Origin: Algoriphagus sp.
GTDB taxonomy: Bacteria; Bacteroidota; Bacteroidia; Cytophagales; Cyclobacteriaceae
NCBI GenBank assembly: GCA_017858365.1
Contig: JAFMBQ010000004.1
Coordinates: 1 to 33,781, forward strand
Direction of reading: 5' to 3'
DNA: 33,781 nucleotides
Positions 2,434 through 28,996 of the stretch are shown piece by piece. How positions within the stretch are numbered: position 1 is the first letter of the stretch; the number at the start of each line of letters is the position of its first letter. Under the pieces are notes generated by a model, which ran no database searches, was not told where the DNA came from, and saw only the letters and a list, made by a program, of their open reading frames with translations. The position numbers and the translations under genes were made by a program.

Positions 2434-4842
2434 CTAAGCCGAAGGAAGCGTAATTATAAATTTTGACCCTTTATTGGTGTCGCTTTTCACTGAGATTGTC
2501 CCTTGATGCATTAGTACAAACTCTTTCATAATAGATAGCCCAAGACCAGTTCCTTGAATATTTTTAACATTGGTAGCCCGATAAAAAGAAGAGAAAAGTC
2601 CTTGTTGATCCTTTTTTGGAATCCCTATGCCGAAGTCTTTACAGGTAATGATTACCTCAGAAAGTTTATTAAAGGAGATTATTAAGATCGGATCTTTGGT
2701 ATCCGGTGAATATTTTAAAGAATTAGAAAGGACATTAGTGAGTACGTGCTCTATCAAAAGAGGGTCAATAGAGATAGATCTGGGGACTCCAGCTAATTCC
2801 AATTTCACCATTCGTGCGTCTAATCTGCCTTGACATATTTTTTGGATAGCCAATTCTGCAAGTTGAACAAGGTCTGTCTGACGCTTGGAAATTTCCACCT
2901 TTCCGGCTTCAATTTTTCCAAGTAAAAGAATATCATGCATCAGGTTAGTGACTCGTCCTATTTCGGAATCGATCCGTTTGAAATATTTTCCATAAACTTC
3001 TATCGAATTTGGATTCTCCATTTCAAGTTGGAAGTTGATTAGATCTACATTTTGTTTAATGGTCGTCAATGGGGTTCGAAATTCATGGGATGTCATGGAG
3101 ACAAATCTAGATTTCAACTCATTTAGGTCCCGCTCCTTTGCCAGTGACTTTTCCATTTCGTCTCGAGTTGATTTTGCCAAGGTGATATCTCTAATAAATG
3201 CAGTAAAAGAGTGAATACCTCCTTGGACTATGGGGATGATGGTAAGTTCAATTGGAAATTCTTCCTTAGTTTTTCGCTTGGCGGTAAGTTCTAACCGTTG
3301 GTTTAGGGCAGGCCCAACTCCAATAGAATTGAACTTCTTCATTCCGTTTTCATGTGACTGATGATGGTGAGAAGGAATGATATTTTCGGTGAGATACTTT
3401 CCTATGACTTCGTTACTTTTCCATCCGAAAATTTCTTCTGCTCTTGGATTCCATTCTTGAATCTTTCCGCCCTCATCGATAGTGATTATAGCGTCCAGTG
3501 CGGATTCAATTACTGTCCTCAGCTTTTTCTCGCTTTCTCGTAACTCGTTTTCAGCAATTTCTTGTCGCCGCTTAGTTTTTGCATTTTTAATTCGAGATGC
3601 AGAAAGGTTTGCTATAATTTGAAGTGTTTCTACATGCCTCGAGTTGAAAAAGTAGATTTCTTTATGCTCACAGTTGATTATACCAATCACTTGGTTTTCG
3701 GCTTTGATTGGAACGGCTAACTCTGATCCATAGGGCATTTTTTGAACGATATAGCGCGGATCCAAAGCGGTATTCGAAATAATTTCCACGGACCCTGACT
3801 TTGCCACAGATCCGATAATTCCTTCCCCAAACTTCCAACTTTCTCCTCCTTCACTCACCTCGTGCTGGGTATTTAGACTTGCTTTAAGCTCAAGGATATT
3901 TTTGTCCAAATTCAGAATATAAATCTCTGCGTTGTCAAACCCGAATGTGTTCACTACATGCGAAACCACTTCTGAGGCAATTCCATTTACTGTGTCTTCT
4001 TCAAGCAGTTTGATTACAAATTGATTGATTAAGTAGAGAAATTGTTGGCTTTCGAAAAGCTCTATTTCTTTGGCTTTTCGATCCGAAATATCTAAATGAA
4101 TGCCTATGGAGCCAATTTGTGTGCCCTTGGAGTCAAATGTTGGAGCTCCTGAAATTAAGGCATAAATAGCCTTACCTGATTTGGTAAGAATTTGAGCTTC
4201 ATATACACTGGATTGGTTTTTCTCGCGAAGTTTATTTTGTTTTTTTATTTCAGCTCGCATCTCCTCATTGGTGAGGACTTCTGAAGCTATTTTTCCCATC
4301 AATTCCTCACGAGCATAGCCAGATATCTCACACATCGCATCATTGATATAGGTAATGCGTTCATCTTTATCCACTTCGATCAGACCGAATTGGAGATTTT
4401 GGATGATTCCTCGATATTTTTCTTCGGATTGAATCAACATATCGGTGGCTAGGTATTTTTCAGTGATTACTCTAGCCACAGCCATTGCCCCTTTTACCTC
4501 TTTCCCAACGAAAAGTAATTGAACATTTTGCCCAAGCCAGATTGTTTTTCCATCTGCTGAGGCTACAGGAAATTCCAAATAAGTGATTTTTGTTTTTTTC
4601 TCAAATTGATCTCTGTAGAAACTGCGAACCCGATCCAGATGATCTGGATGTACCAATTCGGTATATTTCATTTCTAGTAGTTTAGATCTAGAATATCCAA
4701 GGATCTCCTGGGCACGAATATTTCCAAAAGTAAAATGGCCAGTTAAATCAGTCTCATAAATAATATCATGAGCACGCTCCACTAAAAGTCGATAACGATC
4801 TATGGAGAAGCTGGGAAAGTCGACTAAATCTTCTTTACTCAA
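2434..4842 (-). CDS. Multi-PAS/GAF sensor histidine kinase
   Basis: Several PAS repeats (HDIIYETDLTGHFTFGN, ERITYINDAMCEISGY, DAIITIDEGGKIQEWNPRAEEIFGW), a GAF-like segment, H-box SMTSHEFRTPLTTIKQ, and ATPase motifs CKDFGIGIP and GTGLGLSI. Confidence 0.95.
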   Translation of the reverse strand: MSKEDLVDFPSFSIDRYRLLVERAHDIIYETDLTGHFTFGNIRAQEILGYSRSKLLEMKYTELVHPDHLDRVRSFYRDQFEKKTKITYLEFPVASADGKTIWLGQNVQLLFVGKEVKGAMAVARVITEKYLATDMLIQSEEKYRGIIQNLQFGLIEVDKDERITYINDAMCEISGYAREELMGKIASEVLTNEEMRAEIKKQNKLREKNQSSVYEAQILTKSGKAIYALISGAPTFDSKGTQIGSIGIHLDISDRKAKEIELFESQQFLYLINQFVIKLLEEDTVNGIASEVVSHVVNTFGFDNAEIYILNLDKNILELKASLNTQHEVSEGGESWKFGEGIIGSVAKSGSVEIISNTALDPRYIVQKMPYGSELAVPIKAENQVIGIINCEHKEIYFFNSRHVETLQIIANLSASRIKNAKTKRRQEIAENELRESEKKLRTVIESALDAIITIDEGGKIQEWNPRAEEIFGWKSNEVIGKYLTENIIPSHHHQSHENGMKKFNSIGVGPALNQRLELTAKRKTKEEFPIELTIIPIVQGGIHSFTAFIRDITLAKSTRDEMEKSLAKERDLNELKSRFVSMTSHEFRTPLTTIKQNVDLINFQLEMENPNSIEVYGKYFKRIDSEIGRVTNLMHDILLLGKIEAGKVEISKRQTDLVQLAELAIQKICQGRLDARMVKLELAGVPRSISIDPLLIEHVLTNVLSNSLKYSPDTKDPILIISFNKLSEVIITCKDFGIGIPKKDQQGLFSSFYRATNVKNIQGTGLGLSIMKEFVLMHQGTISVKSDTNKGSKFIITLPSA

Positions 4843-21308: not shown

Positions 21309-21589
21309 GTGGAAGCATTTATGTATGTTTTGAAATGTGGTAATGGAGATTATTATAAAGGAAGTACTAAAATCTAGAAAGAAGAATTGAAGAGCACCAA
21401 TTGGGGCTAGGCGCTAATTTTACAAAGAAACACCTGCCCGTTAAACTTGTATATTTTGAAGTATTTGATAGGATTGACCTAGCGTTCTTAAGGGAAAAGC
21501 AAGTTCAAAAATAGTCCAAAGCTAAAAAGGAGGCTTTAATCGATAAAGATTTTGAAAAATTGAAGTCGCTAAGTAAAGGAAAATCTTAA
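21309..21589 (+). pseudogene. Decayed GIY-YIG endonuclease gene
   Basis: Hand translation: VEAFMYVLKCGNGDYYKGSTKI*, then after a 1-nt shift LERRIEEHQLGLGANFTKKHLPVKLVYFEVFDRIDLAFLREKQVQK*SKAKKEALIDKDFEKLKSLSKGKS*. Restoring one A in the AAAA run gives GSTKNLERRIEEHQ; the internal TAG falls where Trp is expected (QVQ.WSKAKKEAL). Confidence 0.85.
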
Positions 21590-21590
21590 C

Positions 21591-21725
21591 CCCTCGACTT
21601 CGCTCAGGGTCCATTTAGTATAAGTAAAGTGAAGGGTAGAGAGATTGAAAAGCGTAAGCGCTTTTCAATCTCTCTACCCTTCTCACTAATGTAAATTTCC
21701 TCTGGCCGAGCGAAGTCGAGGCCAG
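21591..21725. repeat. 135-nt nested palindromic repeat (REP/MITE-like)
   Basis: Inner perfect 24-bp arms 21631-21654 and 21659-21682 with TAAG loop; outer arms CCTCGACTTCGCTC 21592-21605 and GAGCGAAGTCGAGG 21708-21721. Both pairs are centred on 21656.5. Each end also forms its own small hairpin. Confidence 0.9.
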
Positions 21726-25458: not shown

Positions 25459-26541
25459 ATGAAGTTGGACAACAAAAAAATCTTTCAAACACTCAACCCG
25501 AATAAGGTCTGGGTACCAGTTCTAATAGGACTCGCAATTGTATTTGCGATGTTTTACTTCGACCCTTCCATTAATGCGAATAGCCTCAAGGTCATAAAGG
25601 ATGCTTCCATTTCCTGGATTATTGTTGCAGCCTTGTTTATCCTGATTAGAGATACTGGATATGTCTTTCGGATTCGAGAGATTACCGGTAAGCAGCTTAC
25701 ATGGACTAGGGCGATCTATGTGATTATTCTCTGGGAGTTTGCATCAGCAGTTACGCCTTCTGTCGTAGGTGGGACTGCAGTAGCAATGTTTATTCTCAAT
25801 AAAGAAGGAATCAAGCTTGGTCGAGCGATTGCGTATGTAATGGTTACTGCGATTTTGGACAATCTTTTCTTTGTGATCGGGGCACCGATTATTCTTTTTT
25901 TTGCACAAGGAAATATTTTTCCTACCGGCAAAGTCTTAGAGTCTCAGCTTCAGAATAGTCTAGAGGCGATTTTTTGGATAAGTTATGCACTTTATGCCTC
26001 CTATAGCTTGGTCATGGCTTTGGCGCTCTTTTATCGACCGCGCGTTTTCAAATGGATCTTAATGAAGATTTTCTCCATCAAATTTCTCAGAAAGTGGAAG
26101 CATGATGCAGACGAATATGGAAATCAAATCATAGAGGCTGCTAAAGAATTATCAGGTAAAAGCCTGCGCTGGTGGATCCCTCTAATTCTTGCTACTATCT
26201 TGATTTGGTCATCGAGGTACTTTATGTTGAATGCGTTGATTTCAGCTTTTGTACCACTCAGCATTGAACAAAACATAATCGTTTTTGCCAGACAGGTGAT
26301 CATGTGGATCGTGATGATGATCTCGCCGACCCCGGGAAGTAGCGGGACTGCTGAGTTTTTCTTCGCCCAGTTCTTCACTCAATTCTTAGAAGGATATACC
26401 TTTATCACCAGTATCCTTTGGAGATTGCTCTCCTATTATCCTTACTTGGTTTTAGGAGCAGTGTTCTTACCTAGATGGATTAAACAGGTCTTTTTTAAGA
26501 AAAAGAAAAAAAAATCATCCACTGATGCTCCATTATCTTAG
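25459..26541 (+). CDS. Flippase-like (UPF0104/lysylphosphatidylglycerol synthase TM region) membrane protein
   Basis: Multiple TM helices; ALFILIRDTGYVFRIREITG, EFASAVTPSVVGGTAVAMFIL, ISPTPGSSGTAEFFFAQFF are family-typical. Confidence 0.88.
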   Translation: MKLDNKKIFQTLNPNKVWVPVLIGLAIVFAMFYFDPSINANSLKVIKDASISWIIVAALFILIRDTGYVFRIREITGKQLTWTRAIYVIILWEFASAVTPSVVGGTAVAMFILNKEGIKLGRAIAYVMVTAILDNLFFVIGAPIILFFAQGNIFPTGKVLESQLQNSLEAIFWISYALYASYSLVMALALFYRPRVFKWILMKIFSIKFLRKWKHDADEYGNQIIEAAKELSGKSLRWWIPLILATILIWSSRYFMLNALISAFVPLSIEQNIIVFARQVIMWIVMMISPTPGSSGTAEFFFAQFFTQFLEGYTFITSILWRLLSYYPYLVLGAVFLPRWIKQVFFKKKKKKSSTDAPLS

Positions 26542-28996
26542 TGTCGATCAACTTGTAAAAATCACCGGGGGGAAGCTAATCAATAGCGGTAAAAATCTAT
26601 GGATCGATCAAATCAGTATTGATTCGAGACAGATTTATAATCCTAGTAAAACGCTCTTCGTTGCACTTCAAGGAGCAAAAGCAAAAGGAGAAAGCTTTAT
26701 TCCGGCTTTGGTCGAATTAGGTATAGAAGTCTATTTGGTACCTATAGAAGCGGTAGAAAAACTGGCAGAAACCTTCGAAAAGGCATCCTTCATTGGCGTA
26801 CCGGACGCGAGAAAAGCACTTCAACAAATCGCAAAATACACGCGGGAGCAATTCAAAGCACCCGTCGTTGGGATCACCGGAAGTAATGGAAAGACCATTG
26901 TCAAGGAGTGGCTGGCGCAAATCTTAAGTCAAAGCTTTGCGGTAGCAAAAAGTCCAAAAAGCTACAACTCACAAGTCGGTGTACCACTTTCAATTTTTGG
27001 AATCAAGGCCGCTCACCAAGTGGCGATCCTAGAAGCTGGCATTTCCCATTTGGGAGAAATGGATGCTCTGGCAAAGATGATTCAACCAAATCTTGGGATT
27101 TTCACAAATATCGGAACCGCTCATCAGGAGGGATTTTCTGACTTGAAGTCCAAGCTAACTGAAAAATTAGCCCTATTTCAGTCTGCGGATTTGATTATTT
27201 ATTGTCAAGATCAAGAATTTGTCAAGCAGCAAATGGAGGAGATTTTTCCTTTTGATCGAAGAATAGCTTGGTCTGACCTTCCTGGAGCCACATTTACCAG
27301 ATCCTTAAAGTTGGGAATAGGTAACTCTAGGATGATTCTAATAAAGCAAGACTTGAGTACGTATACTTTCAATTTGCCCTTTTCTGATGTCGCATCGGTA
27401 GAAAATATTACCCATGTAATTATCGCAGCACTTACTTTGGGACAAGACCCCGCATTAATTCAATTAGGCATCAGTCACCTCAAGCCCGTGGATATGCGCC
27501 TTACCTTGAAACCCGGCATCAATGATTCCTTGATTATCGATGATACTTATACCAATGATTTGGCGGGATTGAAAGTGGCGCTTGACTTTATGCAGCAGCA
27601 GCGGCCAAAGCGTAAAAGGGTCATCATCTTGTCGGACATGCTTCAGCAGGGCGATCCAGAATCGCTATATCAAGAAGTTTTAGCATTGATCGATCGCTAT
27701 CAATTCGATGAAATCTATGGTGTGGGAAATGAAATAAAGCTTTTGGGAAAAGGACTCGGCGCAAAATTTAACTTCTTCAACTCCACAGAAGGGCTACTTT
27801 CTGAGCTAGACCCAAATTCATTTGCCAATGATTTAATTCTGATCACTGGAGCTAGAGCCTTTGGTTTTGAACGAATCGTGAATCGCCTGCAGCAACGAGT
27901 TCACGGGACTTCTTTGGAAATCAACCTGAATGCGCTTACCCATAATTTCAATTTTTATAAGCGAAAGCTTAACCCCACCACGAAAGTCATGGTGATGGTA
28001 AAGGCATTTGCCTATGGAGGAGGTGCGGCTGAGATCGCGAATCACCTTCAGACTTTGGGGGCAGATTACCTTGCAGTAGCATTTACCGACGAGGGAGTCG
28101 CCCTAAGAAAAGAAGGAATTCATCTGCCTATTATGGTGCTGAATCCAGCTGAAGAGTCATTCGCATTATGTCAAGAGTTTAATTTGGAGCCCGTTGTATT
28201 TTCGCTCACTTTTTTCCAGAATCTGGCGAATTGGTGTGAAATACAAAATGCCTGGCTGAAAATTCATTTGGACTTGGATACGGGGATGCATCGCCTGGGA
28301 TTTGAATCGAAAGACTTGCCTGAGCTAGCCGAATTGATTCAGTCCTATCCTAAATTAGAAATTGCCTCCATGTATACGCATTTGGTTGGTGCGGATGAGA
28401 TGGTTCACCAAGATTTCAGCTTAAGACAGTTCGAGATTTTTAATCTAATGAAGGAAAAAATTCTTGAATTGCTGACCTATACCCCCCTTTGTCATACTTT
28501 GAATTCTGCTGGAATAATCGCTTTTCCACAATTTCAGTTTGACATGGTTCGATTGGGAATCGGGCTCTATGGGGTGGAGGTTACGGGCCGATTTGGGACA
28601 GCACTTCAATCAATCTCAACGTTAAAGACTACGATCTCTCAGGTTAAAACCTTAGCGGCAGGTGAAACAGTCGGATATTCTCGAAAGGGAAGTCTGCCGA
28701 ATGGAGGGAAAATAGCAACCCTTTCTATCGGATACGCTGATGGCTATGATCGGCGATTTAGTAATGGAAAGGGGTATGTCTTGATTCAGGGTAAAAAGGC
28801 TCCGGTAATAGGCAATGTCTGTATGGATATGGTGATGGTAGATATTTCTGAAATCGAGGCTCAGGCAGGAGATGAAGCGATTATCTATGGGCCAGATATT
28901 CCGCTTAAGGATTTGGCGGATCGAATCGGCACTATTCCATATGAGTTGCTTACCAATATTAGCACGAGGGTGAAGCGAGTTTATTACCTGGATTAG
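26525..28996 (+). CDS. murF-alr: Bifunctional UDP-MurNAc-tripeptide:D-Ala-D-Ala ligase / alanine racemase
   Basis: N-terminal Mur ligase with GITGSNGKTIVKEW and SYNSQVGVPLS; C-terminal Alr with VMVMVKAFAYGGGA (PLP Lys) and GNVCMDMVMVDI. Confidence 0.95.
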   Translation: MLHYLSVDQLVKITGGKLINSGKNLWIDQISIDSRQIYNPSKTLFVALQGAKAKGESFIPALVELGIEVYLVPIEAVEKLAETFEKASFIGVPDARKALQQIAKYTREQFKAPVVGITGSNGKTIVKEWLAQILSQSFAVAKSPKSYNSQVGVPLSIFGIKAAHQVAILEAGISHLGEMDALAKMIQPNLGIFTNIGTAHQEGFSDLKSKLTEKLALFQSADLIIYCQDQEFVKQQMEEIFPFDRRIAWSDLPGATFTRSLKLGIGNSRMILIKQDLSTYTFNLPFSDVASVENITHVIIAALTLGQDPALIQLGISHLKPVDMRLTLKPGINDSLIIDDTYTNDLAGLKVALDFMQQQRPKRKRVIILSDMLQQGDPESLYQEVLALIDRYQFDEIYGVGNEIKLLGKGLGAKFNFFNSTEGLLSELDPNSFANDLILITGARAFGFERIVNRLQQRVHGTSLEINLNALTHNFNFYKRKLNPTTKVMVMVKAFAYGGGAAEIANHLQTLGADYLAVAFTDEGVALRKEGIHLPIMVLNPAEESFALCQEFNLEPVVFSLTFFQNLANWCEIQNAWLKIHLDLDTGMHRLGFESKDLPELAELIQSYPKLEIASMYTHLVGADEMVHQDFSLRQFEIFNLMKEKILELLTYTPLCHTLNSAGIIAFPQFQFDMVRLGIGLYGVEVTGRFGTALQSISTLKTTISQVKTLAAGETVGYSRKGSLPNGGKIATLSIGYADGYDRRFSNGKGYVLIQGKKAPVIGNVCMDMVMVDISEIEAQAGDEAIIYGPDIPLKDLADRIGTIPYELLTNISTRVKRVYYLD

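Follow-up and report, generated by a model that had tools for sequence, protein, structure and literature searches.

Two REP-like repeats, paired tail to tail, form a nested palindrome beside a small GIY-YIG nuclease pseudogene in Algoriphagus

The nested palindrome at positions 21590–21725 of the stretch of Algoriphagus sp. DNA analysed here (33,781 nt, ‘the window’) consists of two REP-like repeats (core TCGACTTCGCTC) set tail to tail around a purine-rich palindrome (Table 1). We consider it probable (roughly 0.6) that this pair belongs to a unit of gene and repeats that is the counterpart of a REPtron with a GIY-YIG enzyme, the action of that nuclease being inferred. The inserted unit would consist of a small GIY-YIG nuclease gene followed by REP–palindrome–REP, with the window palindrome as its 3′ part and the GIY-YIG nuclease in the place that a RAYT tyrosine transposase occupies in a REPtron. 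A GIY-YIG gene that is regularly flanked by such repeats is a concrete candidate enzyme for the CGTC-tagged REPs, and this candidate opens the question of their mobiliser to assays that need a single small protein and hairpin substrates.

Table 1. Features of the nested palindrome and the adjoining gene (window coordinates).
Feature	Position	Strand	Basis or remark
Small GIY-YIG nuclease pseudogene, with frameshift and in-frame stop	21309..21589	+	Three-frame translation; 72% identity to the G218 protein, stops inside
Left REP-like hairpin, CCCC-TCGACTTCGCTC-AGGG	21590..21609		Sequence and family covariation
Whole tail-to-tail dimer with outer 14-bp arms	21592..21721		Position conserved in G222 (locus 75% identical)
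Inner palindrome, 5′ arm, purine-rich	21631..21654		Perfect 24-bp match with 3′ arm
Inner palindrome, loop TAAG, 4 nt	21655..21658		
Inner palindrome, 3′ arm, pyrimidine-rich	21659..21682		
Right REP-like hairpin, CTGGCC-GAGCGAAGTCGA-GGCCAG	21702..21725		Sequence and family covariation

The preliminary description of this DNA had proposed concentric arms separated by two equal spacers, and this geometry is exact: the inner arms match at 24 of 24 positions and the outer arms (21592–21605 and 21708–21721) at 14 of 14, around the common centre 21656.5, with spacers of 25 nt each (21606–21630 and 21683–21707). Constant spacer length, which it named as a point to check, is not found among other copies: lengths run from about 21 to 29 nt on the left and from 12 to 29 nt on the right (one decayed copy excluded), and the equal spacers of the window are a single case within this narrow range. 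Both spacers are partly occupied by the stems of the end hairpins (the left one given elsewhere as CCCT-core-AGGG). Allowing one mismatch, the core occurs twice in the window, against 0.08 occurrences expected, and the pair satisfies the criterion for a REPIN (two REPs in inverted orientation with a short spacer). The 142-nt strand folds 11–13 SD below dinucleotide shuffles, both as RNA and as DNA.

The stop codon TAA (21587–21589) of the GIY-YIG pseudogene is followed immediately by the repeat dimer. This gene is intact in the orthologues of genomes G222, G218, and G225, and the intact G218 protein matches Pfam GIY-YIG (PF01541; E = 5.9e-18); as the gene is broken in the window genome, the window copy is a relic. 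At this GAF–abhydrolase locus, the unit of gene and repeats is present in five Algoriphagus genomes (G000, G222, G218, G225, and G216; intergenic gaps of 547–936 nt) and missing in three (G214, G180, and G235; gaps of 27, 8, and 32), with a remnant in G232. Elsewhere in the window (26525–28996), an open reading frame fuses Mur ligase domains with alanine racemase.

The inner stem covaries, even between orthologues: three paired changes separate the window from G222, G218 carries a different perfect purine-rich palindrome at the same position of the locus, and G225 has a purine-rich palindrome there too (read off its sequence by eye); the G216 orthologue has both repeats and no inner palindrome. 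This single-locus comparison is stronger evidence than the figure from 26 chosen inner stems, of which 98% of cells pair versus 60% with the 3′ arms reshuffled, because those stems were picked for being palindromic and the 98% is biased upward. Strong inner palindromes occur mainly in Cyclobacteriaceae copies; hence, the repeat family at large does not need one. Joint change of the arms, seen even between orthologues, would also fit a mutational process, namely template switching that corrects imperfect palindromes and so keeps them perfect without selection. That process, however, explains neither the variable end stems around a common core nor the association with a nuclease gene, and we regard it as unlikely.

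The same genome (675 contigs) holds a second complete pair (C494) and a shorter one (C472). Pattern searches of related and public genomes found the identical layout in three genera, Algoriphagus, Cognataquiflexum, and Aquiflexum. They also found repeat pairs in Sphingomonadales, Cyanobacteria, Flavobacteriia, and others, most of which lack a strong inner palindrome; a 17-bp palindrome is present, off centre, in one Flavobacterium pair. The 131 distinct pairs bear 44 different 4-nt end stems, with four of four Watson–Crick pairs at 203 of the 262 ends; local pairing of the 4 nt on each side of the core is seen in 90.2% of cells versus 43.5% ± 1.4 when reshuffled. For the 91 elements with differing ends, local pairing stands at 90.8% versus 50% for long-range pairing across the element. 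Cyclobacteriaceae elements usually have one GGCC-type end and one CACC-type end. The claim that selection acts on the end hairpins, for which copies with covarying stems had been sought, is thus supported by the 131 pairs. Folded alone, the left hairpin of the window is weak (z −0.6) and the right one stronger (z −2 to −2.8); the evidence for end hairpins is the comparison across copies, not the folding energies of these two ends. Conservation may extend from the stems to the core sequence; the search pattern required TCGACTTCGCTC, so the 131-pair set cannot test this. Relaxed core forms (TCGAC-N2/3-GCTC) recur beside GIY-YIG genes that were located by protein. Around position 4205 of locus L102 (minus strand), repeat hairpins are nested to a depth of three, one within the loop of the next. 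Copy counts and the association counts given below are uncorrected for relatedness.

One clade of small GIY-YIG genes is physically associated with these repeats in several phyla. The 117 loci fetched by repeat pattern alone contain 16 GIY-YIG open reading frames—from Bacteroidota, Cyanobacteria, Alphaproteobacteria, and a Gottesmanbacteria MAG—of which 15 lie within about 650 nt of a core; often a pair precedes the start codon and one repeat stands at the 3′ end. Conversely, when loci were fetched by protein, genes of the clade had a core within 300 nt at 13 of 14 Algoriphagus loci and at 21 of 22 loci in a second group, compared with 0/13 and 0/6 for other GIY-YIG genes. The second group consists of genomes already known to hold repeats, and its internal control is the 0/6 together with the distance profile. 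A repeat-blind test, based on the longest word common to both 300-nt flanks of a gene, found shared flanks at 19 of 25 loci versus 0 of 25 controls and, in a second draw hand-picked from lower-scoring matches of the same protein search, at 27 of 39 versus 1 of 39. Repeats such as GTCATTGCGAG...GCAATCTC or adjoining tRNA genes can also yield shared flank words, and a literature search for GTCATTGCGAG returned no relevant paper.

Three observations on other GIY-YIG genes are recorded here in their own right. A more distant second group in Algoriphagus (L264–L268 and L270) has clustered repeats of the type GTCAYTGCGA...GCAATCTC on its flanks; the small GIY-YIG genes of L269, L271, L272, and L274–L279 have tRNA genes close by; and some GIY-YIG matches stand in regular tandem (G218:C1 at 5553167, 5553536, and 5553905; G212:C15 at 50544, 50922, and 51300).

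Around the second GIY-YIG set, the leading unselected hairpin tags are CGTC (15) and TGTC (14), NGTC tags number 38 near the genes versus 2 far from them, and the flanking hairpins have A–T or A–C next to the CGTC/TGTC tag. In the first phylum draw, just 13 of 29 loci had a TCGAC core within 500 nt. Where the clade is present, an Algoriphagus genome holds 10–102 cores, against a median of about 1.5 where it is not; the count tracks clade presence (p = 5e-5), more weakly for genomes of at least 3.8 Mb (p = 0.007), and several genomes without a detected clade member are still rich in cores (28, 46, and 57). On the GIY-YIG protein tree, the TCGAC label clusters (10 changes, equally low in 1 of 500 shuffles); the tree has too few columns for a good test of co-inheritance, most of its forks are unresolved, and a motif filter dropped part of the set. 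Dispersed ends match repeats of their own genome in 25 of 60 cases versus 4.6 expected, a figure on which we do not rely, as descent and function are confounded in it and some of the pattern hits are due to chance.

The same proximity counts bear on the possibility that the window holds a REP/REPIN-type doublet moved by a RAYT, an IS200/IS605-like tyrosine transposase, with the GIY-YIG gene as a bystander. Inverted REP pairs are indeed the REPIN layout, and Y1 transposase genes were found in all 10 genomes searched; nevertheless, of the 27 full Y1 loci just one has a core within 300 nt (1 core in about 96 kb), in contrast to the 13/14 and 21/22 core-flanked loci of the GIY-YIG clade, and we deem this origin very improbable. 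Linkage to RAYT genes was tested at these 27 tyrosine transposase loci and none was found. Two Y1 loci have features of their own: one region (G174:C1:281349–283525) gives three equal-scoring Y1 matches spaced by 916 nt, and in another (L185:1101–2600) a Y1 gene is surrounded by an array of numerous short hairpins, and one of these has a TCGAC-type core in place of the usual loop.

For the preferred REPtron-like unit, we propose that the GIY-YIG protein would recognise and nick extruded hairpins, so that repeat pairs are copied to new sites, and that the inner palindrome would help the pair to extrude as a single cruciform or hairpin; both steps are inferred. A wider suggestion, for which the odds seem to us somewhat less than even, is that small GIY-YIG nucleases are dedicated mobilisers of TCGAC-core and CGTC-tagged REPs, acting via extruded hairpins beside the HUH and DDE routes; here, too, mobilisation is an inference. 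Four Blastomonas genomes share an orthologous pair. In two species a 51-nt hairpin is inserted into it at the same loop point, TCGACTTC^GCTC—in the left repeat in one and in the right repeat in the other—and the remaining sites are empty. When all split points of the core were scanned for inserts, tandem copies dominated the result and no clean site preference emerged; the one insertion relied on is that in Blastomonas, with its empty orthologous sites. The association could instead mean that the repeats settle near GIY-YIG genes, and no nuclease-driven movement has been shown. No paper linking GIY-YIG with REP sequences was found in a literature search that omitted most subscription journals, and a search for the core sequence yielded no relevant paper.

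The setting of the palindrome, between a plus-strand gene and a minus-strand gene, with a strong and covarying inner stem and terminator-like matches on the minus strand, would suit a structural RNA, i.e. a bidirectional terminator or an mRNA 3′-end stabiliser between convergent genes. Yet the tail after the stem (TTCACTTTAC) has no T run, leaving the criterion for an intrinsic terminator unmet, and repeats of the same family also occur upstream of start codons and inside MITEs. An RNA element is, in our assessment, a distinctly unlikely account of the palindrome, and a secondary RNA role is not excluded. Rfam yielded no family above the gathering score, its only matches being sub-threshold ones, mostly to microRNA models.

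The occurrence of repeats inside MITEs raises the possibility that the palindrome forms the central part of a miniature transposon of the DDE type, bounded by IS1595-like ends. The copies at C494 and C472, as well as other Cyclobacteriaceae copies, have outer ends TATCCGC-N5-TGCCAGTAG, an element of about 1 kb with identical ends encodes an IS1595 transposase, and direct repeats of 8–9 nt are legible by eye at some flanks (AAAGTAAAT in L068 and AAGCATATT in L122). Those direct repeats, however, are A+T-rich and come from comparison of sister copies by eye, with no chance estimate, and none is assigned to the window copy; neither the window copy nor its G222 orthologue has IS1595-type ends, and the left repeat of the window copy abuts a coding region. 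MITEs that have IS1595-type ends can carry sister copies along; that the window palindrome is itself the middle of one we hold to be improbable. Two IS1595-family elements of about 1.03 kb were noted in locus L241 of G000:C562 (3919–4947 and 316–1341), one with an open frame and one with a broken frame, both with ends common to many short MITE-like elements.

Among known systems, the CGTC-tagged REPs were described from five phyla, including Bacteroidetes, as short hairpins with varying stems, often dimeric, mostly intergenic, and with some structured spacers, which ‘apparently lack a dedicated transposase’ and for which a tail-to-tail layout is called rare (Di Nocera et al. 2013; PMC3733652). 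The window repeats resemble them in being short hairpins with varying stems, often dimeric and mostly intergenic, some with structured spacers, and differ in their tail-to-tail pairing, their asymmetric core, and the lack of a CGTC tag. No CGTC or TGTC tag stands at the stem boundary used here for the window: the 4 nt inside the end stems are TGGA on the minus strand of the left end, and the CCTC-T that precedes GGCC is no such tag; TGTC-type tags are present beside other GIY-YIG genes. The stem criterion of CGTC REPs (8–9 bp, A–T first pairs, loop of 4–5 nt) is likewise unmet by window stems of 4–6 bp around a 12-nt core. The IS1595 family is connected with the module through sister copies enclosed in MITEs that have its ends; the window copy is without such ends. 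From REPINs and REPtrons with a RAYT (PMC3116915 and PMC2817692), the window differs in that the associated gene is GIY-YIG rather than an HUH tyrosine transposase and in that neither hairpin end has a GTAG tag in its sequence; it shares with them inverted REP pairs, dispersed copies, and repeats flanking a nuclease-type gene.
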